Assembly (NCBI RefSeq): GCF_022378355.1
Contig: NZ_JAKMAJ010000018.1
Location: 1-64,000 of the forward strand
Direction: 5' to 3'
Source of the DNA: Brenneria bubanii
Lineage (GTDB): Bacteria; Pseudomonadota; Gammaproteobacteria; Enterobacterales; Enterobacteriaceae
Length of the DNA: 64,000 nucleotides
Of the stretch, positions 1 through 12,322 are shown piece after piece (the first letter of the stretch is position 1; every line of letters begins with the position of its first letter). A program made the position numbers and the translations under genes. The notes below the pieces were generated by a model. It was not told the origin of the DNA and ran no database searches. It saw only the letters and a program-made list of their open reading frames with translations.

Positions 1-22
1 AGAAAGCGGTCAGCAAAAATGA

Positions 23-469
23 TCAAATAGCGGGCATTAAAAATGGCGAAAAACGGTCATAAAGCTTGGCGTTGACATCGCTGAGTATCTCCAGCCATTT
101 TATCGGCACAAAATATCCTGATTTCTCCGGGTTATCTGGATTCTGGCGATAAAGTTCACCGTGCTGGGGTACGTCCATTGCCAGCTTCTCTCCTTCAGGC
201 GTGTCGCTTTTAAAGCTGCTGGCGGGCTGCGCGGCTGAAAGCACTTTACCGATACCCACATAGCCTGTGCTGGGGATTTTTACCCTGTCGCAATTATCCG
301 ACTGCAGTTGTTTTGACGTCTGGCTGTACCAGTTACCGCCCTCCGCGTTGATAAACCCATAACGCCGGGCATTTTGCCAGCTACGGCTTAGCGGGTCGCC
401 AAAGGAGATATAGAACTCGCCATTCCACGGTTCGCGCTCTTCAGCGCTGATGCCGTCGCAAATAATCAC
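23..469 (-). pseudogene. remnant of a PUA/EVE-like nucleic-acid-binding protein
   Basis: The product (148 codons from a GTG) contains the hallmark run of a PUA/EVE-like family often encoded near defence genes: EPWNGEFYISFG, RSWQNARRYGF, then a GDRV-like turn and IPSTGYVGIGKV. From memory of the family, proteins usually carry an extra N-terminal region ending in something like LEKFVVICDGIS, and a longer C-terminal region. Here the reading frame upstream of the GTG encodes QLEKF and runs directly into the stop codon of the preceding gene, so the family-like sequence begins without its usual N-terminus. The expected V-W in the GDRVWVKIP stretch is also missing, and the C-terminal end is abrupt. 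I see no Shine-Dalgarno sequence before the GTG. I read it as a decayed fragment; a short functional protein cannot be excluded. Confidence 0.5.
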
Positions 470-499
470 AAATTTTTCTAACTGAGTAAGTATTGCAAC

Positions 500-955
500 T
501 TAATTCACTGAGATAGAGAAATGGCGTTTAAAAGCAGCCGGGCGAGATACCCTCTTATCTTCATTAATGAAGGGAACTCTCAGTTTCGGCGCATGATGAA
601 CCGCCACTTTCCATAAATTATCTCCCATAAAATTAAAATCAACCGAATCAGAGGATGCTACTCTTATATTTTTGAAAATCCCTGTGTTATACATTGCGCC
701 AATAGTGGCTGAATCGATAACCGCGCTATTAGAACCCAAGCGGATAAGAAATATGTTCAGTGATTCCTCAAAAATAACATCATCAGTCAAAAACAGAAGA
801 TAAAGCGCATCATCCACCTTAACCGCCGCTTCCAGCACTTTACCTGACACCATAACGCCGGTGGCTTTACCACTCAGCAGCACTTCACATGCTGATTCCT
901 TAAATTGTGTAGCCTCATGGATAATCTGTAATGAGATTGCGTTAGTTACTTCCAT
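500..955 (-). CDS. hypothetical protein, possible partner or immunity protein
   Basis: I do not recognise this 151-residue protein. It has no membrane segment or signal peptide and looks like a small mixed alpha/beta cytoplasmic protein. The ATG at 955 is chosen over the GTG at 967 because GGAGG lies seven bases before it; the start follows the stop of the upstream gene by two bases, so the pair is almost certainly co-translated. The upstream product has a hydrophobic, glycine-rich C-terminus reminiscent of membrane-active toxins, so a partner or immunity role is a reasonable guess from gene order only. Its TAA stop is in the same frame as the downstream EVE-like fragment, with no other stop between them. 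Confidence 0.55.
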   Translation of the reverse strand: MEVTNAISLQIIHEATQFKESACEVLLSGKATGVMVSGKVLEAAVKVDDALYLLFLTDDVIFEESLNIFLIRLGSNSAVIDSATIGAMYNTGIFKNIRVASSDSVDFNFMGDNLWKVAVHHAPKLRVPFINEDKRVSRPAAFKRHFSISVN

Positions 956-957
956 TT

Positions 958-1680
958 TTACCTCCACACATTACCCATTTGCCACGCAGCAAGCGCACCG
1001 CCAACAAAAGCGCCCAACACCACGCACGCTGGGGCCGCAGGAGCACATATCAAACCGGCAACAGCGCCACCAGCCCAGCCACCGGCAATTCCTGCTCCAC
1101 CAATTGATAACTGTCGCCCAGTTTCGTTCAGTTTATCATCTGCATTCATTACTTCATAAACCGCCACCGCAACGGCAAACACGACAAGTCCTTTCCCTGC
1201 CTGCGAAAACCTGAGCATACTTAAATCTACTTTGGGATTTGATCGACCGGCAGATTCCACTATGGCACCGAATACATTGTTCCTTTGTATATCTGATAAG
1301 GTATTGAAATTGGCTTTAGCGCCATAGAGTTGGAGGGTTTTTCTGGCAACAAGATCATTGAAGGTTTTCCCTGTCAGCTTCATTTTTTGCGCTAACGCCC
1401 TCCCCACAGGGGTAGACTTCGCTCGAATCATTTCCATAGTCATGTTGCGCGTATCCATCGCTTCTTTTGCTGCTTGTTCCCATGTCAGGATCCCTCGGTT
1501 GGCACGCTCCCGAAGCTCATCTGACATAGCTTTTATCAGCCTTGAATATTCAAGTCGTAATCGGGGATCTATAGAAAGTTGCGCAGCAATGGCAGCCATT
1601 TCTCCCTGAAAAGCAGAAATAACCTGCTCAAACTGCTCTTTTCCTCTTTTATCTAAAGGACTCAAAAGTGCCGTATCCAT
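958..1680 (-). CDS. hypothetical protein with glycine-rich membrane hairpin, candidate toxin
   Basis: A 240-residue protein of unknown family. Residues 1-155 are charged and helical (for example an RLRLEYSRLIKAMSDEL stretch). Residues 162-178 form a hydrophobic helix, and 191-232 form a second, strongly glycine/alanine-rich hydrophobic segment (GGAGIAGGWAGGAVAG, then a Cys-Ala-Pro turn and GAFVGGALAA). A soluble helical domain followed by a glycine-zipper hairpin is seen in several pore-forming or membrane-targeting antibacterial effectors, but I cannot assign a named family. The ATG at 1680 has GGAAG six bases upstream. It is the first gene of a short operon with the 151-residue protein downstream. 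It lies in the ssrA island, so it is probably mobile cargo. Confidence 0.6.
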   Translation of the reverse strand: MDTALLSPLDKRGKEQFEQVISAFQGEMAAIAAQLSIDPRLRLEYSRLIKAMSDELRERANRGILTWEQAAKEAMDTRNMTMEMIRAKSTPVGRALAQKMKLTGKTFNDLVARKTLQLYGAKANFNTLSDIQRNNVFGAIVESAGRSNPKVDLSMLRFSQAGKGLVVFAVAVAVYEVMNADDKLNETGRQLSIGGAGIAGGWAGGAVAGLICAPAAPACVVLGAFVGGALAAWQMGNVWR

Positions 1681-2924
1681 ACAACTTCCGTTGAAATATG
1701 ATTATTTTCGCCCAAATCAGAAACTATGACCTGACTATATACCGAATATCAAAACACTATGCTATTCCGTCAGAAATATACATATCAGAAATGCCCTCAT
1801 GCATAAAGATTTTCATATAGGGGAATAGATTACCTTGCAAGGATATAGTTATGTGTTTAATAATTTTCATGCTATGTGTGCTTTATTAACTATCAGTATA
1901 GAAAAAGCGTTCTTGAAGGGGGGATAATATATGCACGCAGCTTTCTATGGTGCGTTAAGTTTATTTTTAAATTTAATAATTTAAATAATGTTGATAACTT
2001 TATCACCAAGGCCGGAATATTGAATGCTCTGCGGTATTCCGCAATATGGAGACGATAGAAACAATTACTCGGTCGTCGAGCAGAAAAGATTTAATGGTGA
2101 CGGATATTCTGTTTTCGTCGATTGTGAGGAAAAAATATAAGGGTTACTCTACATCAATATTGCGGAATTAATTAGCCAAACAATAATTTTATTGCCGTTA
2201 ACATCAGAAGGCGGTCTCCATCGCGCGGGGTTTTTCTGGAATAGCTTCTAGCAAATCCGCTGGGGGAAGTTGAATTTATTGCCTATAATATTGATTATAT
2301 GGTTTATTACTGATTTCATTTTTGTGTCATGGGCCCAAGTGTGGGCCTAAAAATTTTGTTTGCCTGATTAAAGTGGAGGCTGTGGGATCTTTTTGCGAAA
2401 TGGGTAGCAAAAATATTTTTAGCCGAGGAATCGAATTGTGTGTTTTATAGCCATAGGATTCAGGTCCAATACAGCTTCGACTGTGAATAGTAAGAAAAAT
2501 ATATATGCGTAGAACCTAATTTATGCAGGTGGCAGAATTGCGCGTAACGATGTTTACTAAGATAATTATCTAAACACAGATAATGAAAATAACATTTTTT
2601 AATAGAAAGATACTGGCCATAAATAATAAATTTAAAATAGTAGAAATGCTTAGTAAGGTGTTTTTATTTGTCAGAAAAGCAATGGCGGTTGTCTTTTTTT
2701 TAGTAGGAAGTCTAATAATAAAAGCCTTCTGATATATAATATATTCAACTGAAGGCCTTTGGGGCTCTAATGAACTAACGTTGCATTTCTGTCTCTATGA
2801 AATTTTCGTCTGTAATTGAATTCATAATTAAGAAATACATTTCTTGAGGTTGAATAAATGCCAGTTCCTTGCAGAGACTAATAACTGTATCGCTATAGGA
2901 AATACCCATGCGGGGATTAAATAG
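1681..2924. other. AT-rich stretch without a convincing gene
   Basis: About 1.2 kb of strongly AT-rich DNA lies between the putative toxin gene and the nuclease-like gene. The only open frame of note (1876-2058, + strand) has 60 codons, no ribosome-binding site and no recognisable protein features. A short inverted repeat (GGCCCA agtg TGGGCC) lies at 2331-2346, and a terminator-like hairpin facing left lies at 2724-2764. The rest shows nothing I can name; it may be decayed cargo or hold the promoter of the gene to its left. Confidence 0.5.
2724..2764 (-). terminator. likely terminator of the reverse transcriptase operon
   Basis: On the minus strand an imperfect GGCCTTC / GAAGGC stem with an AT-rich loop is followed by TTTTATTATT. 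It lies about 160 bases beyond the stop of the nuclease-like gene and is correctly oriented to end that transcript. Confidence 0.5.
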
Positions 2925-3515
2925 TTAAAAATTTCTAATCTCTCTCTTTTCTTTAGAGTAAAAATTCAAAGTAAGATATATGATTAGTTGTCTTAAGTCA
3001 TATACGCTAAATTTTCTATCTCCAGATTTTATTTCAACAAGATTGTTGGGATGGTATATATCTCCATATGAGTTATTTATTACCCCACAACCGCTAAATA
3101 ATGGGGATACTTCAACATATTTAATTCCTTTATATCTTTGGTAAATACTTCTTGATATCTCTCTAATTGTATTATATTCAAGCATATCTAATGGGAGTTG
3201 AAAGTTTGAACCATAGCTAAATCTTTTTAAATATTCTTTTGTATTTTCAAATATATGTTGAAATTCTGGACTATGAAAAATATCTGAGGAAAAAAGGATA
3301 TTTTCATCTAATAAGCCATTTTGAGTAGCAGCATAGATGTTAAAAGCACATTCATTAACGAAAACATTATTTGCTCTATTTGTGCTATTAGTTAAAGGTG
3401 GATATATATCTTCAACGAGACTACCGTTTACAATACGTATAAAGTTATTTGCATTTGGCAGCAACTGATTCCAGAATGACGTAAATTTTCTGGAAAATGT
3501 AAGTTCAGATATCAT
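2925..3515 (-). CDS. PD-(D/E)xK nuclease-like protein coupled to reverse transcriptase
   Basis: A 196-residue protein without a signal peptide. The C-terminal part carries a plausible PD-(D/E)xK core: Asp152 in SYGDIY, then Glu161 and Lys163 in LVEIKSGDRKFS, then Asp173 and Gln176 in a helix (VYDLRQLIIYL), the order seen in restriction-endonuclease-like folds. The N-terminal 130 residues are unassigned. Its ATG overlaps the stop of the reverse transcriptase gene by four bases (ATGA), with GAGG eight bases upstream, so translation is coupled. Base composition is as AT-rich as the reverse transcriptase and unlike the core genes. I infer a nuclease or nucleic-acid-binding partner of the reverse transcriptase, acting as effector or processing enzyme; activity is not demonstrated. 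Confidence 0.6.
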   Translation of the reverse strand: MISELTFSRKFTSFWNQLLPNANNFIRIVNGSLVEDIYPPLTNSTNRANNVFVNECAFNIYAATQNGLLDENILFSSDIFHSPEFQHIFENTKEYLKRFSYGSNFQLPLDMLEYNTIREISRSIYQRYKGIKYVEVSPLFSGCGVINNSYGDIYHPNNLVEIKSGDRKFSVYDLRQLIIYLTLNFYSKEKREIRNF

Positions 3516-5140
3516 AGCGCATCCTCAAGGTTTCTTGCTGTCTGCCTTTGTCCTGCCCAATCTCTATATAATATTTCTATATAGTTGAATGAATCTTTAT
3601 TATGATCTCTCCAATGTTTCCCTTCATCACCCAAAAAATAGCTTGAGATTATTAATAGCCTACGTTGCAATGGGTGCATTCCTGCAAAGTTCTTTTTAAT
3701 ATCGGAAAGCCAAGGATGAAATTTAAGTTTAGTCATGGATTGGGTTACGATATTTTTTACTAATATGCTTTCTGGGTTTTTATTGTAAATTTCGCTTAAA
3801 ATAAGTATGGATTTTTGACTGTTTTCTTTAGATAGCATTCTGGCTACATATGCCAAATTTAACTCGGTACTTAAAATGTAGGATTCTTCTTTTATAAGTT
3901 CGTTTATTTTATCTAAAATAATATTTTTTGTATCTAAATCAATTTTTTTCCAGTTTGAAGTTGCGACCTGAGTGATTGTTGTGAAAATTGGATAAAGCTC
4001 ATGAAGATTATTAAACATGACCTTAAAAGCACTGCTAGTTGTTTCAGCAGAAGTTGCAGAAAAGGCTTTAATCAAATGTTTGCTAAATGATTGATTAATC
4101 TTAGATTTTTGTAATTCACTGCTCAACATCGCTAATAAATCAAAGTCTTTTAAAGCTTCTTTTATTTCTTCGTATTCCTCGACTGCATTAGCAGAGTATG
4201 GGTCAAACCTTATAGGTAAACTCATAAACTTGGCTTTCATTGGAGACTCTTCGTCTTCATCAGTACCATGCAGTTTTGCTTTAGTTACGGAGAGAAACTC
4301 TTCTTTAGTAACAATATTAGTTTTGTGTTTTTGTAATGTGAGCCCCTCATTTTCCATTAGTTTTTTACTAACAAGGGTCAGGGTTTTATGTGCATCTTCC
4401 CGTGAATTGCAGAAAATAATGAAATCATCTACATATCTTTTATAGTTGATTTGATTCATAGATAACAGTTTATCGATAGAATCTAACGCAAGCTCAGCAA
4501 GTATTCTTGATGCTGGACAACCTACAGGGACACCATAGGACTTAGTTTCGCTAAATGTTTGTAGTAATTTTTTTATTTTATTTGAGTAATGCTTCTGTGG
4601 ATCAATTCGATCTAAGGCATTTTCTAAACGATGGTGATAGATACGTGGATAAAAATCTGCAATATCACAAGTGAGAACATATTTAACTTCTTCCATGGAG
4701 CATTCAGTTATGCTGTCTTCTTGATATTTTCTCCATGATATATTTTTATTAAAAAGACTCCCATCATCGAGATTTGGTTTAAAGCGATAAGAGTAAACAC
4801 TAGTATTAGGGGAGCGTATATCTTCAATGTCTTGTGATAATTTTATTACTAAACCTAGAAAAAAAGCATTCCAGAAAGGATCTATTTGTGTAGCCCATCT
4901 ATAGCCGTAATACCCAATTGTTGAGAAACTATTAATCAAATTAGGTGGTAGTTCTATTCTTTTTTTTTCAAATTTATTATAAGTTTCCATTAACGCATCA
5001 GTTACTTTTTGTTTGTTATCCTCAAATAATCGGCTTTCAAATGGATAGGGGAAAATATCCGTATCACCATATTTTATTATGTTTTCAAGGGCTAGGCTAA
5101 AACAATCCTCTAATTTATTACTATCAAAAACGTTACTCAC
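3512..5140 (-). CDS. reverse transcriptase of the UG/Abi (defence-type) class
   Basis: The 542-residue product has the palm motifs of a reverse transcriptase. Motif A is CDIADFYPRIYHHR with catalytic Asp159, motif B is YGVPVGCPASRILAE (about 202-216), and motif C is YVDD (236-239). A primer-grip-like basic stretch LQKHKTN follows, and then about 240 residues of helical sequence with no maturase, thumb-X or endonuclease domain that I recognise. The PVGCPASRILAE form and the helical tail resemble UG/Abi reverse transcriptases (AbiA/AbiK and DRT families) rather than group II introns, retrons or DGRs. I place the start at the GTG at 5140, because AAGGAG lies seven bases before it; a TTG at 5167 is a poorer choice. 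The gene is strikingly AT-rich, follows a tyrosine recombinase, and overlaps the nuclease-like gene. The exact UG group cannot be named without a tree. Confidence 0.85.
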   Translation of the reverse strand: MSNVFDSNKLEDCFSLALENIIKYGDTDIFPYPFESRLFEDNKQKVTDALMETYNKFEKKRIELPPNLINSFSTIGYYGYRWATQIDPFWNAFFLGLVIKLSQDIEDIRSPNTSVYSYRFKPNLDDGSLFNKNISWRKYQEDSITECSMEEVKYVLTCDIADFYPRIYHHRLENALDRIDPQKHYSNKIKKLLQTFSETKSYGVPVGCPASRILAELALDSIDKLLSMNQINYKRYVDDFIIFCNSREDAHKTLTLVSKKLMENEGLTLQKHKTNIVTKEEFLSVTKAKLHGTDEDEESPMKAKFMSLPIRFDPYSANAVEEYEEIKEALKDFDLLAMLSSELQKSKINQSFSKHLIKAFSATSAETTSSAFKVMFNNLHELYPIFTTITQVATSNWKKIDLDTKNIILDKINELIKEESYILSTELNLAYVARMLSKENSQKSILILSEIYNKNPESILVKNIVTQSMTKLKFHPWLSDIKKNFAGMHPLQRRLLIISSYFLGDEGKHWRDHNKDSFNYIEILYRDWAGQRQTARNLEDAL

Positions 5141-5325
5141 CTCTATCTCCTTAAATATGTCACCCAATATTTAGATGGATGACCTCGTTATTTTAAATAC
5201 AAAAAAGCATCGTTGTAGGCTATTTTAACCTCATTAGTATCTGAATTCTTAAGTACACTTCGATAACTGCTGAGTTAAAACGAACTTCATTTAGTGTAGC
5301 ATTCGAAATCATTCTGAGGGGCATT

Positions 5326-6216
5326 TCACACATATTTTGACCCACTCACTCTCCCATAAACCCGCTGCACATACCGCCCACGTCCATCCCCGTGCCCTAA
5401 ATCCATCGACACCAGCGAGCGGGCTTCCCGGTTGCTGAAACCTTGTTGCCGGTAATAATGCATCGCATCTTGCGCCCATGCGTAACGCAGGCTGTGCGGG
5501 GAATATTGCCCCTTTAGTCCTGCCAGAGCGGTTTGCGTGCGCCAACGGTTCATGGCGCTTTTCAGATCCGGTTTATCAATCAGCCGACCATTGTGGCTAG
5601 CGGCAATCGCAATCGCCTGATTCACTGTCTGCGTTAACGTTTCCCGATCCAGCACCCGCGTTTGCCGGGGCCGTCCGCCCTTGGTGCCGAATACCACCGT
5701 TAATTGCTCGTCGCCTCGCTCCAGCGCCGTGGCCCATGTCTTGAGCGACTGCGAACACTGCACCGCTTCCTGCGAGCGCAACCCCATCATTCGAGCCAGT
5801 TGCAGCGTGAGTGCTAACCCTGCATCTTTCTGTTGCAGGATTGCCAGCGCTGCCTGATAGCGCTCCGGCGTAATCGCCTTTCGCGTACCGTCCCGGCTGG
5901 CGCCGCTCAGCCCTAACGCCTTGTTGCTCAGCCGCTCCGCATCCGCCAGCTTAGTCCGCCCGGCGGTGCGTAGTATCACTCGCACTGCCGCCATTTCATT
6001 ATGCAGCGTGCGCAGTGTAATTCCCTGTTCTAACCGTTCGGTGATATAGCATTCGATATGTTTTGCTTTCAGATGCTGCACCGTGCGGATCTGAATATTC
6101 AAAGATAGCAGATGACTAGCAAGCCGCTCTGCAATTTTTAGTCGGTCATGTACCGTCTTATGGCTGCCGCCAGCCTGTCGGGCCAGCGTCTGCATCTCCC
6201 GGCTTAATCGTGACAT
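5326..6216 (-). CDS. tyrosine recombinase of the 'integrase domain' type
   Basis: A 296-residue tyrosine recombinase. A SAM-like N-terminal half (about 1-110) precedes a catalytic domain containing Arg in MMGLRSQEA, Lys in GTKGGRPRQTR, the HxxR box in SPHSLRYAW, His in LGHGDGRGR, and tyrosines in RYVQRVYG near the C-terminus that can serve as nucleophile. It belongs to the group annotated as 'integrase domain-containing protein' that travels on enterobacterial islands, usually in addition to the P4-type integrase. It probably acts in excision, inversion or mobility of part of the island. The GC content is typical of the chromosome, in sharp contrast with the AT-rich operon 186 bases downstream, so the composition boundary lies at about 5325. 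No promoter could be assigned. Confidence 0.8.
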   Translation of the reverse strand: MSRLSREMQTLARQAGGSHKTVHDRLKIAERLASHLLSLNIQIRTVQHLKAKHIECYITERLEQGITLRTLHNEMAAVRVILRTAGRTKLADAERLSNKALGLSGASRDGTRKAITPERYQAALAILQQKDAGLALTLQLARMMGLRSQEAVQCSQSLKTWATALERGDEQLTVVFGTKGGRPRQTRVLDRETLTQTVNQAIAIAASHNGRLIDKPDLKSAMNRWRTQTALAGLKGQYSPHSLRYAWAQDAMHYYRQQGFSNREARSLVSMDLGHGDGRGRYVQRVYGRVSGSKYV

Positions 6217-7007
6217 ATGTTATCCCCCCATCCTCAATAACCTCTGTTCTCCGGCGCACGGCGATTTACGACACGGGGAAACCGTGCCGCACTGAGCAAT
6301 ACCTGCGCGCCGGAGCGGCAGCGGTTGAGGTATGACGGAGATATCGGTTATGCACTCGGTGCAGCCGCCTGCATCAGCAGGGTAATCCCCTCAGGCTGAA
6401 AGCCTGCCTCAGGTATCGGTTCAGTCCTCCTCTGATAAGTGGGTTGATGAGAATTGACGCAGAAAATGTGCGTCAGATGACAGGGCACGCCGGAAAGCGT
6501 TGTGGCGTAAGGGCTGGCGCAGAGATCGTTCGCGGCGTCACTTGCAACGGCTTTGCGCCGTATGAAGTGACGCCGCTGCCTCATGGATGCATTCGCTGAG
6601 GCAGCAAAAGGCCGCAGACGGTTGCGCCAGCTATAAAGGGTGTTGTACGCATCAATGCGTATGCAAAAAGCAGTTGCTTCACGAAGAACAAGCAGGATAT
6701 GGCACTAAGGCGCTGAAATAAGGTAGCTACCATCGCCGCAGCGATCACCCGCAAACTGGTAGCGGAGCGGGTTGGGCGTCGACCACACAGGTTGGTCCTG
6801 CGCGTTGCCTTGAAGGTCGTGGCAACATGGGAGTGCTGCTTGCAGCAGCGGTGTGACACGGACAATCTACAGCGCCAAAATCCGTATATCAAGTGGCTAA
6901 CGCGCTGCGCTTGTTGGCTCCTTACTGGATTTCTATTCCATAGAAATCCAGTAAGGAGCGTCTAAATCCACTGACAGGATGAAAAAAATTTTGTAAATTT
7001 TTAGTGG
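6217..7007. other. hairpin-rich non-coding stretch
   Basis: Between the recombinase and the Ner-like gene are 790 bases with no convincing protein. Two open frames on the minus strand (6348-6584 and 6581-6892) have unnatural compositions and no ribosome-binding site. Instead there are several inverted repeats. A 9-bp pair occurs at 6249-6257 / 6307-6315, enclosing a CACGG/CCGTG stem. A long hairpin spans 6532-6576 (12-bp outer stem, symmetric 3-nt internal loop, 5-bp inner stem, TTTGC loop). It is followed at once by a 9-bp stem at 6575-6583 / 6597-6605. A 20-bp perfect hairpin lies at 6917-6959. The region may encode a structured RNA or hold cis sites of the element. Confidence 0.5.
6917..6959. 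repeat. perfect 20-bp inverted repeat with 3-nt loop
   Basis: Two perfectly complementary 20-base arms (6917-6936 and 6940-6959) flank the trinucleotide TCC. No T-run follows on either strand, so it does not look like an ordinary terminator. It lies about 50 bases beyond the stop of the Ner-like gene. It could be a protein-binding palindrome, a recombination site or a dsRNA-forming element. Confidence 0.8.
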
Positions 7008-7253
7008 CTAATCCGAGGTTCCATCTCGGTATTGTTGATGCTGTCCGCTGTTATAACGCGAAGGCCAGATCTCTTCGGGGCGTTTATGCAAGGCTTCGGC
7101 GATTAAGCGTTCTCCTTTAGGCCAATGGCGCGTCAGTGTATTTGCCAAAGTGGAAGAGGCGAGTCCCGCTTCTCTGGAAACCGCAGCCAGCGTTGTGCCT
7201 TTCTTTCTTAAACCAGCAATGATATCTGCCGGATGCCAGTCTTGTTCGGTCAT
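7008..7253 (-). CDS. Ner/Nlp (SfsB) family transcriptional regulator
   Basis: An 81-residue DNA-binding protein of the Ner/Nlp family. WHPADIIAGLRKKGTTLAAVSREAGLASSTLANTL is the helix-turn-helix region (residues 6-40; quoted in two overlapping parts in the family literature), followed by WPKGERLIAEAL and EEIWPSRY, both typical of this family. Ner proteins are Cro-like repressors of Mu-type phages; chromosomal Nlp/SfsB relatives activate or repress sugar and prophage genes. Here it is transcribed divergently from the tandem XRE repressors, so it likely belongs to the island's regulatory switch. The intergenic gap (7254-7411) holds the repressor operators and presumably both promoters. Confidence 0.8.
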   Translation of the reverse strand: MTEQDWHPADIIAGLRKKGTTLAAVSREAGLASSTLANTLTRHWPKGERLIAEALHKRPEEIWPSRYNSGQHQQYRDGTSD

Positions 7254-7333
7254 CGGAAGTTACCCTCGTTAGTAGTCATAAGACAGAGTCAGCGAAGTTG
7301 CCTTCTTCCGACTCAGGCATGTTCTATGTTTCT

Positions 7334-7380
7334 TCTTTAGGAAGTCTAAAGATAATGAATCTTAAGGAATGCTAAAGATT
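7334..7380. promoter_or_regulatory. operator pair upstream of first XRE regulator
   Basis: A perfect inverted repeat TCTTTAG-gaagt-CTAAAGA (7334-7352) is followed by a second, AATCTTAAG-gaatg-CTAAAGATT (7358-7380; one mismatch). Both have five-base centres and start 32 bases or more before the ATG at 7412. The same layout recurs before the second XRE gene, which supports autoregulation. Confidence 0.65.
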
Positions 7381-7411
7381 CTGTCAATACAGTTATTGAT
7401 GGCAGATCCTT

Positions 7412-7693
7412 ATGATCCCTGAACGTCTTAAAAATGCGAGGTTACGGGCTAATCTGACGCAAGAGCAGCTTGGCGTATTGGCCGGGATTGGCGAAGAGAC
7501 GGCCTATTCTCGTCTCTCGCAGTATGAGAGCGGAACGCATACGCCCTCGTTCAAAACGGTTTGCGCCTTTGCACACGCATTGAACGTGCCAGAGAGCTAT
7601 TTCTACACCGTGGACGATAGCTTTGCAGAAGCGATCCTGACACTGTATGCCGGTGAAACCGTACGGTGGCAACGCACACCAGAGGGCAAATAA
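7412..7693 (+). CDS. XRE/Cro-C1 family repressor, copy 1
   Basis: A 93-residue protein made almost entirely of a Cro/C1-type helix-turn-helix: RLKNARLRANLTQEQLGVLAG supplies the first helices, then SRLSQYESGTHTPSF is the recognition helix and exit, and LNVPESYFY is the typical last helix of small XRE repressors. The C-terminal tail (about 70-93) ends LYAGETVRWQRTPEGK. About two-thirds of its residues match the gene at 7802, so the two are a tandem duplication. Operators of the same design precede both. It probably controls the integrase or Ner promoters of the island and itself. There is no good Shine-Dalgarno before the ATG. Confidence 0.85.
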   Translation: MIPERLKNARLRANLTQEQLGVLAGIGEETAYSRLSQYESGTHTPSFKTVCAFAHALNVPESYFYTVDDSFAEAILTLYAGETVRWQRTPEGK

Positions 7694-7722
7694 GGGCAGG
7701 GTGCACACTAAGCGCGTCGCCA

Positions 7723-7769
7723 TCTTTATAAACTCTAAAGAAAATTCATATTGAGGAATGCTAAAGATT
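7723..7769. promoter_or_regulatory. operator pair upstream of second XRE regulator
   Basis: TCTTTAT-aaact-CTAAAGA (7723-7741) is followed by gaatg-CTAAAGATT (7756-7769). The two CTAAAGA half-sites are 26 bases apart, exactly as in the copy before 7412, and the distance to the ATG (33 bases) is nearly identical. Confidence 0.6.
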
Positions 7770-7801
7770 ACCGCAATACATTAACTGCCGGTAATAACTG
7801 A

Positions 7802-8068
7802 ATGATTCCTAAGCGTTTGAAAACGGCCAGATTAAGAGCGAATCTTACGCAGGAGAGGCTCGGCGTACTGGCTGGTATCGAAGAGGCTACCGCCTATTCG
7901 CGTCTGTCTCATTATGAAAATGGTACGCATAAACCTACGTTTGAATTGGCCTGCGAATTTGCCCGCGTACTCAATGTGCCGGAGTGCTACTTTTACATTG
8001 TTGACGATGAATTCGCAGAAGATGTGCTGAATTTGTACCTTGAGCGTTCCCGACGCAAAGAAAAATAA
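7802..8068 (+). CDS. XRE/Cro-C1 family repressor, copy 2
   Basis: An 88-residue small repressor homologous to the product of 7412-7693: RLKTARLRANLTQERLGVLAG, SRLSHYENGTHKPTF and LNVPECYFYIVDDEFAED align without gaps. The C-terminal tail differs (YLERSRRKEK). Recognition-helix residues differ only slightly (SQYESGTHTP versus SHYENGTHKP), so both may bind related sites. It is followed by a strong hairpin and the convergent integrase gene. Two such repressors in tandem with duplicated operators suggest recent duplication, or heterodimer or immunity-type control. Confidence 0.85.
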   Translation: MIPKRLKTARLRANLTQERLGVLAGIEEATAYSRLSHYENGTHKPTFELACEFARVLNVPECYFYIVDDEFAEDVLNLYLERSRRKEK

Positions 8069-8072
8069 CGCG

Positions 8073-8117
8073 TCTCCCGCCTCACACCATCACTTGCTTA
8101 TGGTGTGAGGCGGGAGA
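8073..8117. terminator. strong hairpin between convergent genes
   Basis: Two perfectly complementary 18-base arms (8073-8090 and 8100-8117) enclose a nine-base loop, between the stop of the XRE gene and the stop of the convergent integrase. There is no clear T-run on either side, but the position fits a bidirectional terminator or transcript-end stabiliser. Confidence 0.6.
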
Positions 8118-8137
8118 GAAAACACGGCTTCATACAA

Positions 8138-9379
8138 TCACCCAATTGCCTTAAGTCCCCGGACCCCGCCTTCCAGTACGCTGCCGTTGTCCGCTGCTTT
8201 CACAAAGTCGGCCCACCATTGCATCATGGGGCGACGTTGTTCCAGATAATCGCTGCGGTTATAGGCCCGGCGTACTTCATTTTTATCTACGTGGGCGAGG
8301 GCGGCTTCGATGACATCGGGTGGAAAGCCTTGTTCATTAAGCGCGGTGCTGGCAATGGAGCGCATGCCGTGTGATACCAGAATGCCGCCTAATCCGGCGC
8401 GTTTGAGCGCGGCGTTGACCGTCTGGCTATTCATTGGCTGTAACGGCTTAATGCGGCTGGGGAAAACATACTCCCGGTGGCTGCTTAAGGGTTTCATTAG
8501 CGCCAGAATCGCCAACGCCTGTTCTGACAGCGGAACGATATGTACCCGCTTCATTTTCATGCGTTCGGCCGGAATGCGCCATTCTTTAGCCTCCAGATCG
8601 ATCTCTTGCCAGCGCGTCTCAGCGGCTTCGACTGGGCGGGTGAGGGTGAGAAGCTGCCACATAAACAGACAGCGGGTCGGTAACTCGATATTTGCTAGCC
8701 GCATCGTTTGCATCAGTTGCGGTAGTTGATCCGGGCGGATACTGGGCATGTGCTTTTTCTGCGGTTTCTCGAACGCCTTGCTGATATTGACGCTGGGAGC
8801 CGCATCGATCAGGCCAACGTTCATGGCATAGATCATCACCTCGTTAATCCGCTGGCATAACCGCCTTACCGTTTCCAGCGCGCCTCTGGCCTGTACCGGC
8901 TGAATAGCCTGCACCAGCGTGCGCGCTTTAATGTCCGTAATGCTGATATCGCCGATGGCGGGGAAGATGTCCTTTTCGAGGGAGCGCTGGATATCGGAGG
9001 CATAGTCGGCGGTGACGCTGCTCTTTTTTAACTGTAGCCAGCGCTCGGCAACGACCTTAAAGGTGTTGGATTGGGTTTCCAGCGCTTGCTTGCGCAATGA
9101 AAGCTGGTGTTCATAAGGGTCAATATCTTTTACCAGCAAGGCGCGGGCCGCTGTACGGCGTTGCCGGGCGTCGGCCAGAGTGACTTCGGGATAAGGGCCA
9201 AAAGTCAGTTTTGCGCGCTTTTTGGTTAAAGGCCGGTAGTAGCGCATTTGCCAAACTTTCCTGCCGCTGCTTTTGATCAGCAGTTGCAGACCGTCGCCGT
9301 CATGCAGTGTGTAATCCGCTTCCTGTGGTTTGGCGGCTTTGATCTCCGTATCGGTGAGGGGTTTTGTTAACCGTGCCAT
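8138..9379 (-). CDS. P4-type tyrosine integrase of the ssrA island
   Basis: A 413-residue phage integrase of the P4/DUF4102 type. The N-terminal arm-binding domain begins LTKPLTDTEIKAAKP and continues through a YTLHDGDGLQLLIKSSG beta sheet and LTFGPYPEVTLADAR. A core-binding domain follows, and then the catalytic domain with Arg in LTRPVEAAE, HxxR in SHGMRS, His in ALAHVDKNEV and the nucleophile in AYNRSDYLEQRR. The Met at 9379 is chosen over upstream Mets because GGAGG lies six bases before it. The gene ends beside the XRE genes and starts 180 bases from the ssrA 3' end, the classical layout of an element that integrates into tmRNA. It appears intact. Confidence 0.92.
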   Translation of the reverse strand: MARLTKPLTDTEIKAAKPQEADYTLHDGDGLQLLIKSSGRKVWQMRYYRPLTKKRAKLTFGPYPEVTLADARQRRTAARALLVKDIDPYEHQLSLRKQALETQSNTFKVVAERWLQLKKSSVTADYASDIQRSLEKDIFPAIGDISITDIKARTLVQAIQPVQARGALETVRRLCQRINEVMIYAMNVGLIDAAPSVNISKAFEKPQKKHMPSIRPDQLPQLMQTMRLANIELPTRCLFMWQLLTLTRPVEAAETRWQEIDLEAKEWRIPAERMKMKRVHIVPLSEQALAILALMKPLSSHREYVFPSRIKPLQPMNSQTVNAALKRAGLGGILVSHGMRSIASTALNEQGFPPDVIEAALAHVDKNEVRRAYNRSDYLEQRRPMMQWWADFVKAADNGSVLEGGVRGLKAIG

Positions 9380-9380
9380 A

Positions 9381-9445
9381 GGTACCTCCATCATTTAGGT
9401 ACCCGCTAAATGGGTACCTGCCTTTCGGGTACCTAAGAAGGTACC
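9381..9445. repeat. five GGTACC-centred repeats at the integrase start
   Basis: The palindrome GGTACC occurs at 9381, 9398, 9413, 9428 and 9440, mostly as GGTACCT or its complement AGGTACC, with spacings of 17, 15, 15 and 12 bases. One overlaps the integrase ribosome-binding site. Candidate arm-type integrase or excisionase sites, or an autoregulatory operator. Confidence 0.7.
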
Positions 9446-9491
9446 TAAAAGTTGTGGAAGCCACAAGATCGCCACAGCGCCCAGAAGACGT

Positions 9492-9525
9492 AAAAAAGCC
9501 CGCAGGGCTTGTGCCATGCGGGCTT
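9492..9525 (-). terminator. terminator downstream of ssrA
   Basis: On the minus strand AAGCCCGCA and TGCGGGCTT form a nine-base-pair stem followed by TTTTT. It lies 35 bases beyond the tmRNA 3' end and would end its precursor transcript. Confidence 0.8.
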
Positions 9526-9541
9526 AGTGGACTTCTTTGAC

Positions 9542-9590
9542 GTTCTATAGAACAAAATTTGGTGGAGCTGGGGGGATTTGAACCCCCGTC
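9542..9590. other. candidate island attachment junction
   Basis: The ssrA 3' end (9560-9590) meets island DNA here, and a perfect 12-base palindrome GTTCTATAGAAC lies at 9542-9553. I searched the left 9 kb by eye for a second copy of the ssrA end and found none, so the other junction is probably outside the window. Confidence 0.35.
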
Positions 9591-9923
9591 CGGAATTACT
9601 CTACCGTTGGTACTACATGCTTAGTCTAATCTTTACATTCGCCTGCCAGCTGCGGATTGACACGCCACTGACAAACTAGCCTGATTGAATTTAACGCTTC
9701 AGCCCCAGGCAGGACATCCACGCGATCTCTTTTGGGTTTGACCTCTCTTGATCCCCGTCCTAAGAGCGGAGGCTAGGGAGAGAGGGCTCTTAGCAGGTTA
9801 TTAAGCTGCTAGGGCGTAGTTTTCGTCGTTTGCGACTATTTTTTTGCGGCTTTTTACGAGGCCAACCGCCCCTCGGCATGCACCTAGGGCTTTGCAAATC
9901 CCGTCGAATCCAGAATCAGCCCC
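9560..9923 (-). ncRNA. ssrA: tmRNA
   Basis: A transfer-messenger RNA of 364 bases read on the minus strand. It begins GGGGCTGATTCTGGATTCG and ends GGTTCAAATCCCCCCAGC followed by TCCACCA, so the tRNA-like domain with encoded CCA is intact. The internal reading frame, at about 9798-9834, encodes the tag ANDENYALAA followed by two TAA stops. The RNA rescues stalled ribosomes with SmpB, which is encoded 49 bases upstream. The 3' segment (about 9560-9590) is the usual integration site for P4-type integrases, and the island integrase lies directly beyond it; the gene remains complete because the element carries the restoring sequence. Confidence 0.97.
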
Positions 9924-9972
9924 AAGAAACTTTCGTTAGTATATCAGAACTTACTACTGCAGTGCCAGCGGC

Positions 9973-10455
9973 TTAGCGGTGTGCGTTCTTCATGATTCGC
10001 GCTTTGTCTAATTTCCATTCGCGTTCTTTAATATCATCACGCTTGTCGTGATCTTTTTTACCTTTCGCTACGCCGATTTTGACTTTGCTCCAGGCGTTCT
10101 TCCAGTACATGGATAAGGCAACCACCGTGTAGCCGTCACGGCTGGTGCGGCCCAGCAGAGAATCGAGTTCCCGTTTGTTAAGCAACAGTTTGCGCGTGCG
10201 TGTCGGATCACAAACAACATGTGAAGAGGCGACGTTGAGCGGTGTGATGGTGGCGCCGAACAGATACGCTTCGCCGTCTCGAAAGGTCACATAGCTGTCG
10301 CTGATGTTGGCTTTGCCCGCACGCAGTGATTTTACTTCCCAACCTTGCAACGAAAGACCGGCCTCAAATTCCTCTTCAATGAAGTATTCGTGGCGGGCAC
10401 GCTTGTTTTGCGCAATGGTCGCGGAACCGGGTTTGTACGCTTTTTTCTTTGTCAT
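9973..10455 (-). CDS. smpB: SsrA-binding protein
   Basis: SmpB, 160 residues, binds the tRNA-like part of tmRNA and delivers it to stalled ribosomes in the cytoplasm. The sequence shows the standard family start ([19 protein letters not shown]), the beta-barrel core ([34 protein letters not shown]) and the basic C-terminal tail ([21 protein letters not shown]) that enters the empty mRNA channel. The Met at 10455 is used; the open frame extends to 10515, but that extension is not family-like. It sits directly upstream of ssrA, as in other enterobacteria, and diverges from ratA. Confidence 0.97.
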
Positions 10456-10609
10456 AGTGCCGTCATTATACTGGATGTAAAAGGGAATGAAATCCCCGCC
10501 GAGTGTCTGAGCCATTGTTGATGATATTGTGCGATAGTGCGCGCAGAATTTTCATCTGTCGGCTTATCAGTGCTATTATTTTGCGCGTTTATGAATCACG
10601 GAAAATGCT

Positions 10610-11044
10610 ATGCCGCAGATAAGTCGTTCTGCTCTGGTGCCATTCAGTGCAGAGCAAATGTATCAATTAGTGAATGATGTTTCTTCTTACCCCGCTTTTT
10701 TACCGGGTTGCACTGGCAGCAGGGTGCTTTCTGCCTCGCCGGATGAAATGACCGCCGCGGTTGATGTTTCCAAAGCGGGAATTCGCAAGACGTTTACCAC
10801 ACGCAACACGCTGACCAATAACCATAATATCAATATGCAACTGGTTGATGGTCCTTTTCGTCAATTAAGCGGCGACTGGCGCTTTACGCCATTAAGCAAT
10901 GATGCCTGCAAGGTTGAGCTGCACCTTGATTTTGAATTCACCAATGCGTTGATTGAACTCGCTTTCGGTAAAGTTTTCAAGGAGCTGGCGGGAAATATGG
11001 TGCAGGCGTTCACGCAACGGGCCAAAGAGGTTTATCGTGCCTGA
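10610..11044 (+). CDS. ratA: RatA/Coq10-type START domain protein
   Basis: RatA (YfjG), 144 residues, a single START/SRPBCC domain: [21 protein letters not shown], then [14 protein letters not shown], and a long C-terminal helix ending in [14 protein letters not shown]. Members are described in E. coli as a ribosome-association toxin that binds 50S subunits, while eukaryotic Coq10 relatives bind ubiquinone, so the physiological role is debated. Length and conserved residues are normal. It overlaps ratB by eight bases, is divergent from smpB, and keeps the enterobacterial order. Confidence 0.93.
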
Positions 11045-11321
11045 TATTCGGGTGGGGGTGGTTTACGCATTATCGGCGCGTCAATACCTGCGGTCGGTAA
11101 CGCTGACGGAAGGGAGTACCGTCGAGCAGGCGATAGTGGCCTCGGGGTTGCTGGAACTACGTCGCGATATCGATCTACGGAGCAACAAGGTCGGCATCTA
11201 CAGTAAAGCGGTGAAACTGACCGATACGCTTAATGATGGCGACCGCGTTGAGATTTACCGTCCGCTGATCGCCGACCCGAAAGAGCTGCGCCGTCAGCGC
11301 GCCGAGCGCGCAAAAAAATAA
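11037..11321 (+). CDS. ratB: RnfH-family ubiquitin-like protein
   Basis: RatB (YfjF), 94 residues, of the RnfH family with a beta-grasp fold. The sequence starts at GTG 11037 ([18 protein letters not shown]), overlapping the end of ratA by eight bases, and continues [15 protein letters not shown] to [28 protein letters not shown], which is the usual end. Function is unsettled; it is routinely co-encoded with ratA but has not been shown to be an antitoxin. A longer upstream frame exists but is in the wrong register for the family. Confidence 0.93.
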
Positions 11322-11354
11322 GGCGTCCGGCGCCTTACTCCCTGCCGTTTGCCC

Positions 11355-11401
11355 GCACAGCGGAAACCTCTGTCGATAAAACAGGGTGGTTTCGCTGTGC
11401 C
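11355..11401. terminator. hairpin between ratB and bamE
   Basis: GCACAGCG/CGCTGTGC arms with AAACC/GGTTT continue into a stem of 13 pairs with one bulge. It sits between the convergent ratB and bamE stops. A shorter GGCG-tccg-CGCC stem lies at 11321-11338. There is no clear T-run. Confidence 0.45.
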
Positions 11402-11430
11402 AGCGCGCTATTCAACGGGGCATCGCCAGG

Positions 11431-11766
11431 TTAATTCAGCGTCGGTTTGTTATCGATGTTGGTCAACACGCCTTCAGCGCCGAAGGTCAGCGTCAACGTT
11501 TGTTGTTTTACGGCTTCATGACCCGGCTGTTGGCGGAATACGTAAAACCAGGTATTGCTGCCGAAGGGATCCTGCATCATTGGCGTACCCAGCGTATAAG
11601 CAACCTGCTGTTTGGTCATGCCGGTATGAATTTTCGCGACGTCACCCGGCGCCAGGTAGTTTCCCTGATTGATGTCCGGCCGATAAACCACTTTCTCTAA
11701 CGTGGAACAACCGGCAGTTAGCATAACAACCACCGCAGCGACGACAGTCAGCGTTTTACAGCGCAT
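11431..11766 (-). CDS. bamE: outer membrane assembly lipoprotein BamE
   Basis: BamE (SmpA), 111 residues, a lipoprotein subunit of the Bam complex that inserts outer-membrane beta-barrels. The signal peptide [16 protein letters not shown] runs into the lipobox LTAGC (Cys19). The mature domain has the SmpA/OmlA features [25 protein letters not shown] and [14 protein letters not shown]. The Met at 11766 begins a proper signal peptide, whereas the frame open to 11862 does not. In E. coli it lies next to recN; here a 7-kb peptide-transport cluster separates them. Confidence 0.95.
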
Positions 11767-12322
11767 AGTGATTACATTCCTTAAGGGCATAGGTTGCCGA
11801 TGATAATAGACCTTGCCTGAATTGAAAACCGGCAAGACCCCTGTATGACCCCGGTAAGCCAAAAAAGTTGGGATTTTTTATGGCGGGCTGTCCGTGCCCG
11901 CCCCCCTTCGGTCCGCCGCAAGCGGCGTTTAAAATCGCTCTCGGCGCTTTTTTATGGCGGCATATTATTCGTTGCTGTCCATGACGGACTTCCGGCGTTT
12001 TAGGTTACGCGCCGCGATCGAATCAGACCGGAGACTTCACATCTGATTTTCCGCGCGCTGGAGGAGGCCGAATTATCCGTGTCTGATGGCCGGATGCCCT
12101 TTGCTGTTTTTCTGCAAAAATAACGCATAATCAATACCATTTTTGTTCTTTGTGGTTTCTGTTTGCCTGTGGCAGCATCGCTGTGGACTTAGGTTCTCTT
12201 GTCTTTTGTGCCGTCATTGCGTCCGTCGGCGCTCATCGTTTTTTAAATATGAATACATCATGACTCTATGACTATCCGTTGGCGTCATATCGGCGGGTGA
12301 CTGCGTTTAAAATGAGATCGCT
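11767..12322. other. intergenic region between bamE and peptide transporter
   Basis: About 550 bases with no gene. It must contain the bamE promoter and that of the transporter operon, neither of which I can fix with confidence. A palindromic motif of the form AAAATCGCTcTCGGCG, also found near 24011 and in the 28654 repeats, occurs at 11932-11952 and is followed by six T residues. Confidence 0.5.

Follow-up and report, generated by a model that had tools for sequence, protein, structure and literature searches.

Defence-associated reverse transcriptase (DRT) type 8 is described, in the part of the source that names it, as a reverse transcriptase (RT) with a PD-(D/E)xK domain (PMC12596737). 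Passages of two 2026 overviews state that DRT8 protects against phages, a statement that does not cover the Brenneria bubanii copy considered here, and both call its mechanism unresolved (PMC13314766; PMC13213688). That copy occupies positions 2925-5140 of a 64,000-nucleotide stretch of B. bubanii DNA (contig NZ_JAKMAJ010000018.1), hereafter the window. On the polymerase side, the systems to compare are DRT4, DRT6, AbiK, AbiA and Abi-P2, whose RTs carry a helical-repeat domain such as the one modelled for the DRT8 RT; DRT8 differs from them in adding a separate nuclease-like gene, and RT identity is 14-18%. In the UG/Abi scheme DRT4 is the UG15 group, and we take DRT8 to be UG7. A search of the open-licence literature for a mechanism of UG7 or DRT8 found none. 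In excerpts of one overview, DRT4 and DRT6 are described as single-gene systems and DRT4 is reported to make DNA without a template (PMC13213688); a passage of another source reports the same kind of synthesis for the AbiK, AbiA and Abi-P2 RTs (PMC11077055).

Compared with these systems, the B. bubanii locus is a further, damaged member of DRT8, and its novelty is low. The original prediction was right in what it observed and partly right in how it read it. Its gene pair is almost certainly DRT8, its nuclease-like partner is cut short by a premature stop, and the copy is likely to be defective; intact DRT8 copies exist in relatives. Our overall reading, to which we give a probability of about 0.6, is that this DRT8 system was once carried by a P4-like satellite and now has a truncated nuclease subunit, and that in intact copies a template-free RT would activate the nuclease. 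Largely ordinary in itself, the locus is of use as a naturally half-broken DRT8 copy. Its main value lies in a corrected anatomy, in the case against the RNAs proposed for it, and in a pairing that is limited to one clade. The comparison also yields testable claims: that synthesis is template-free, that the nuclease is RecB/Cas4-like and has L-x-NPR as an invariant motif, and that no template RNA flanks the genes.

The operon and its shortened partner

The features of the operon are as follows.

3512-5140, minus strand: RT gene, 542 amino acids, start codon GTG at 5138-5140
RT residues about 90-290: RT domain, with D159 and YVDD at 236-239 (Pfam RVT_1, PADLOC Drt8)
RT residues about 350-541: helical C-terminal domain (structure model)
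2925-3515, minus strand: partner open reading frame (ORF), 196 amino acids
2925-2927, minus strand: premature TAA in the partner gene, at a place where alignment A1 shows an amino-acid codon in its 13 other rows
2775-2924, minus strand: remainder of the partner gene past the stop, 49 codons that make up the family's C-terminus with L-x-NPR, followed by a stop

An alternative RT start, TTG at 5167, would give 551 amino acids. The two genes share the ATGA at 3512-3515, and the GC content of the operon is 31.1%, against 52.2% for the whole window and 53.6% for 5326-64000; both the overlap and the marked AT-richness had been seen correctly in the original prediction. Against the PADLOC models, the RT matches Drt8 with 534 bits (E 1.3e-160), the runner-up model reaching 121 bits, and the partner matches RTasPDDEXK with 177.7 bits (E 7.1e-53) over positions 1-180 of the 226-position profile. 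Both matches are far above chance. Since both profiles match and DRT8 has been described in print, the pairing is not new but belongs to a defence type that already has a name, contrary to the suggestion that it is not among the well-studied DRT types. An NCBIfam scan of the RT gave only below-cut-off matches to other RT types: a retron assignment was rejected at 59.1 bits for NF038233 (cut-off 235), and a group II intron at 78.3 bits for the TIGR04416 maturase RT (cut-off 300), with no such intron in an Rfam scan of 1-12000. By its profile the RT is a defence RT of the UG/Abi kind, as had been proposed. Both genes match the profiles of the family, and in gene order and overlap the operon is the same as 15 other pairs; it differs from them in a partner that stops after 196 residues, without L-x-NPR.

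The partner residues D152, E161, K163, Q176 and Y180, forming the pattern D...E-x-K...Q-x3-Y, are invariant in 16/16 aligned rows, and the first four were placed correctly in the original prediction. A set of D, E-x-K and Q-x3-Y marks the RecB/Cas4 branch of nucleases, which act on DNA ends. The likeness to RecB/Cas4-type PD-(D/E)xK nucleases lies in these motif residues; no significant sequence or fold match of the partner to such nucleases was found, its structure model being of low confidence, and a weak match to the Cas4a2 profile (E 0.0023) falls outside the catalytic part. What had been described as a 196-residue protein is right as an ORF and as a nuclease pattern, and wrong as a full protein: a stop in frame closes it 49 codons short of where members of the family normally end. 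The intact partners of 15 relatives measure 241-250 amino acids, a full length of which the 196 residues found here fall short. A profile search of the genome that tolerates stops recovers a partner frame at 2796-3515, with 249 codons and one TAA, that follows the profile to position 225 (218.6 bits). The presence of the premature stop in the assembly is close to certain. The L-x-N-P-R motif, kept in the partners of 15/15 intact relatives, is lost from the 196-residue ORF, and because of this loss the copy is probably dead or crippled. No second copy of the locus with which to compare the stop was found in the other nine genomes of the genus (0/9), nor was there any exact 30-base match in viral_contigs. 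Software that relies on profiles could well report the system as complete, since the half-broken copy scores high with both of them.

Distribution and probable satellite origin

Conserved co-occurrence of RT and partner holds in part. The pair recurs: 105 of 5426 complete E. coli genomes have a DNA match over at least 80% of the 2631-base two-gene query, all at 60-80% DNA identity and all chromosomal among the matches listed (40 of 105). The operon was not found in nine other genomes of the genus, and among 197 relatives the source genome and G036 are the only ones with a match. Strong partner matches in samples of 394 order and 398 phylum genomes come from the source genome and G215, and the RT adjoins the partner in G036, G215 and the source genome alike. 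However, when the RT is searched at 1e-40, 4 of the 398 phylum genomes match and the partner is present solely in the source genome. The three other Drt8-model RTs of this survey have no RTasPDDEXK partner, and the co-occurrence is therefore confined to one clade. A 22-row RT tree, whose rows were chosen from search results and are not a random sample, separates the 16 partner-bearing RTs from the six without partner by one branch (92/95; 92% of bootstrap trees); L014, L017, L018, L019, L045 and re-fetched duplicates were left out as copies or fragments, and H2 is also absent. Several partner-free rows are of unsure placement because their branches are long. Over 16 taxa, the distances among RTs correlate with those among partners (r 0.97), the two genes overlap in 16/16 pairs, and none of seven partner sequences had a match at E 0.1 in the six partner-free RT loci. 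In this tree, the pairing sets one clade of Drt8 RTs apart.

All ten divergent RTs scanned (10/10) match Drt8 best, with or without partner. The PADLOC Drt8 RT model thus spans RTs of both kinds, which matters for automatic annotation, and the partner-free ones may form systems of their own that merely share the model's name. Six loci (L031, L032, L036, L037, L038 and L047) have Drt8 as best match (434-534 bits) and no RTasPDDEXK neighbour; in L037 the RT is followed by an AbiEii-like gene, and in L032 by a second gene annotated as reverse transcriptase family. Weak partner-model matches from the phylum survey, L025-L027 (E 3e-9 to 8e-4), were dropped because their 3.1-3.3 kb loci contain no ORF of at least 150 amino acids carrying a YxDD-like motif. 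In 50,697 phage records, tblastn with the RT at E 1e-20 found no match; six plasmid records match the RT, each at less than 60% identity, and the window's partner as sole query matches no plasmid. A mirror image of the damage in the window is seen in E. coli EN-1077 (L014, 5016-7905), where the DRT8 RT is split by an IS3 element and the partner is uninterrupted.

Directly upstream of the RT in the window stands a trace of a probable former carrier.

5149-5318, minus strand: remnant of the 3' end of a P4-type integrase gene, decayed and frameshifted

With the integrase of L008, tblastn aligns residues 349-368 and 369-404 in two frames, contiguously over 56 residues (25.4 + 29.6 bits, E 2.9e-7 on a 185-base target), whereas the best single score in 500 shuffles preserving base composition, 497 of which gave any hit, was 22.3 bits. 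A P4-type integrase is followed by the RT, in the same direction, in loci of E. coli and Citrobacter and in some from viral contigs. In the E. coli relatives DRT8 lies between integrase and psu, adjoining a cos-like block; the three E. coli loci viewed all have psu and ogr/Delta genes nearby, and two have a primase-helicase gene. Of 12 sequences searched for the cos-like block, a set with near-copies in it, 8 have it downstream of the partner. This neighbourhood fits the psu-int region of P4-like satellites, which is presented as a defence hotspot in part of the literature (PMC9122126). Unlike the E. coli relatives, which keep the integrase-psu-cos setting, the window retains merely the integrase tail there. 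Three short exact patterns did not find the cos-like block in the window. Of the P4-satellite proteins of L053, six were searched, psu and primase included, and the sole match is a weak one of 22 residues to ogr/Delta at 2001-2066 (E 0.005); lying past the partner gene, it may be a further satellite remnant. Neither psu nor primase of L053 matches the window at E 0.01, and as the window begins at a contig end, more could lie elsewhere. The DRT8 copy was probably once carried by a P4-like satellite. In genome G036 the DRT8 copy has upstream of it an integrase frame (L015, 5274-6017) that stops early although its match runs on to 6473, and so this satellite may also be decaying.

Predicted mechanism and its alternatives

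The polymerase motifs of the RT are intact: D159, D238 and D239 are invariant in 17/17 aligned rows, and motif A Asp159 and YVDD 236-239 stand where they had been predicted. A structure model of moderate confidence (pLDDT 71.9, pTM 0.76) gives, after the RT domain, a helical-repeat domain with an overall fold as in AbiK and DRT4, in line with the helical tail noted earlier. The model aligns end to end with six Abi/DRT polymerase structures, all of the template-free kind, at 14-18% identity, and full-length alignment was found with template-free polymerases alone. On the strength of this model, the DRT8 RT probably works without template. In intact DRT8 the RT would act like those of AbiK, AbiA and DRT4, making DNA without a nucleic-acid template and probably with a protein primer. 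Upon a phage signal, the RT or its DNA product would activate the RecB/Cas4-like nuclease, which would cut DNA and stop phage growth at the cell's cost, as an abortive defence.

On the role of the nuclease, we lean only slightly toward an effector over a trimmer of the RT product. As a trimmer, the partner would keep healthy cells clear of the DNA made by the RT by degrading it, and that DNA would build up to toxic levels once a phage factor shielded it. Such a course is reported for DRT4 in a passage of one overview, where random single-stranded DNA turns toxic once phage ORF55 shields its 3' end (PMC13213688). The residues present in the partner, with Q-x3-Y, are those of nucleases acting on DNA ends. 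However, the source genome keeps an intact RT beside a truncated partner, and Drt8-model RTs without any partner exist; the absence of a required antidote is not expected, and this argues against the trimmer, which we regard as rather unlikely. Drt8-model RTs could also form two mechanistic groups: a clade whose RecB/Cas4-type nuclease would read template-free synthesis, and a partner-free group that would defend by its DNA product alone. The window copy, derived from a satellite, would then be slipping from the first to the second through loss of the partner's C-terminus, an idea that is unlikely as it stands.

Synthesis on an RNA template is what DRT2, DRT3 and DRT9 do, their need for a non-coding RNA being stated in part of one source (PMC12596737), and a DRT8 template could lie within the genes or be conserved in structure only. 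Non-coding space exists in relatives such as L012, with 316 nucleotides upstream of the RT. In the window, the roughly 186 bases upstream (5141-5325), put forward as a possible place for a template RNA in the original prediction, were rejected: they are decayed integrase coding DNA and fold no better than shuffles (z-score -0.32). In 7 of 11 loci (L007, L008, L013 and L016-L019, several of them near-copies) the integrase ends between 20 nucleotides inside the RT and 2 nucleotides before it; among the rest, besides L012, the ORF of L015 ends prematurely and no integrase ORF is listed for L009 or L011. Comparison of the window's flanks with relatives found no conserved stretch downstream, and upstream the integrase tail only. 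Synonymous change per site is 0.57-0.93 in RT windows (mean 0.77) and 0.67-0.97 in the partner; no trough was found in seven close sequences with 30-codon windows, which short elements would escape. These three tests speak against a template RNA, though one conserved in structure only could escape them. With the end-to-end alignment to template-free RTs added, RNA-templated synthesis appears improbable.

It is equally doubtful that the truncated partner is a working short nuclease, or that its stop is read through, leaving the system intact. All five residues of the catalytic pattern do lie ahead of the stop, and the codons past it still look constrained, with amino-acid identity to six relatives of 71-84% there against 66-77% ahead of it. 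As identity is no lower past the stop, the stop looks recent or an assembly error, and a recent stop would leave the same constraint. Besides L-x-NPR, the truncation removes two helices, the whole of strand 205-210 and the greater part of strand 195-200, as judged from a low-confidence model of the intact partner of L007. As the nuclease lacks the motif and, by this weak model, the strands that close its core, the system probably no longer works in defence, even though its RT gene is intact. It is unlikely that assembly or sequencing introduced the stop by mistake and that the strain has an intact DRT8, even with a draft of 533 contigs, a single event, an open RT frame and a partner frame free of a second stop before its usual end, and we hold the stop very probably to be a real mutation.

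Neighbouring elements

Further upstream lie the following features.

5326-6216, minus strand: tyrosine recombinase of the Pfam Integrase_1 type, from another element (PF12835, E 7.8e-64)
6293-6424, minus strand: EFASI RNA, RF02957 (97.8 bits, gathering threshold 51.2)
6726-6862, minus strand: radC RNA, RF01754 (59.5 bits, gathering threshold 40)
8138-9394, minus strand: P4-type integrase adjoining the tmRNA gene (Pfam), 59-60% identical by tblastn to the DRT8-abutting integrases of L008 and L016
9560-9923, minus strand: tmRNA gene

The setting beside a tyrosine recombinase and ssrA is as first described, with the tmRNA gene and the integrase next to it. The hairpin-rich region 6217-7007, also proposed as a template, was rejected: the RNAs in it are EFASI and radC, and the integrase that belongs with it is a different one. 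Since these RNAs stand beside the Integrase_1 recombinase, the region belongs to another element than DRT8. A query of 5150-7300 matches 522 of 5426 E. coli genomes, none with 80% coverage; among the matches listed (10 of 522), 48-54% of the query is covered, and single-piece matches extend from near the EFASI RNA across the integrase. No duplicate of the tmRNA 3' end, as an attachment site, was found in the assembly with an 81-base query or among the direct repeats of 1-10000, searches that a short core would escape.

A 65-nucleotide direct repeat (77% identical) at 7334-7398 and 7723-7787 precedes two similar small HTH-type ORFs, at 7412-7693 and 7802-8068, and the repeats are possibly operators of duplicated regulators. 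Near the start of the window, three adjacent ORFs on the minus strand (958-1680, 500-967 and 23-469) have no Pfam family above cut-off; the first of them encodes 240 amino acids with a hydrophobic, Gly/Ala-rich end.
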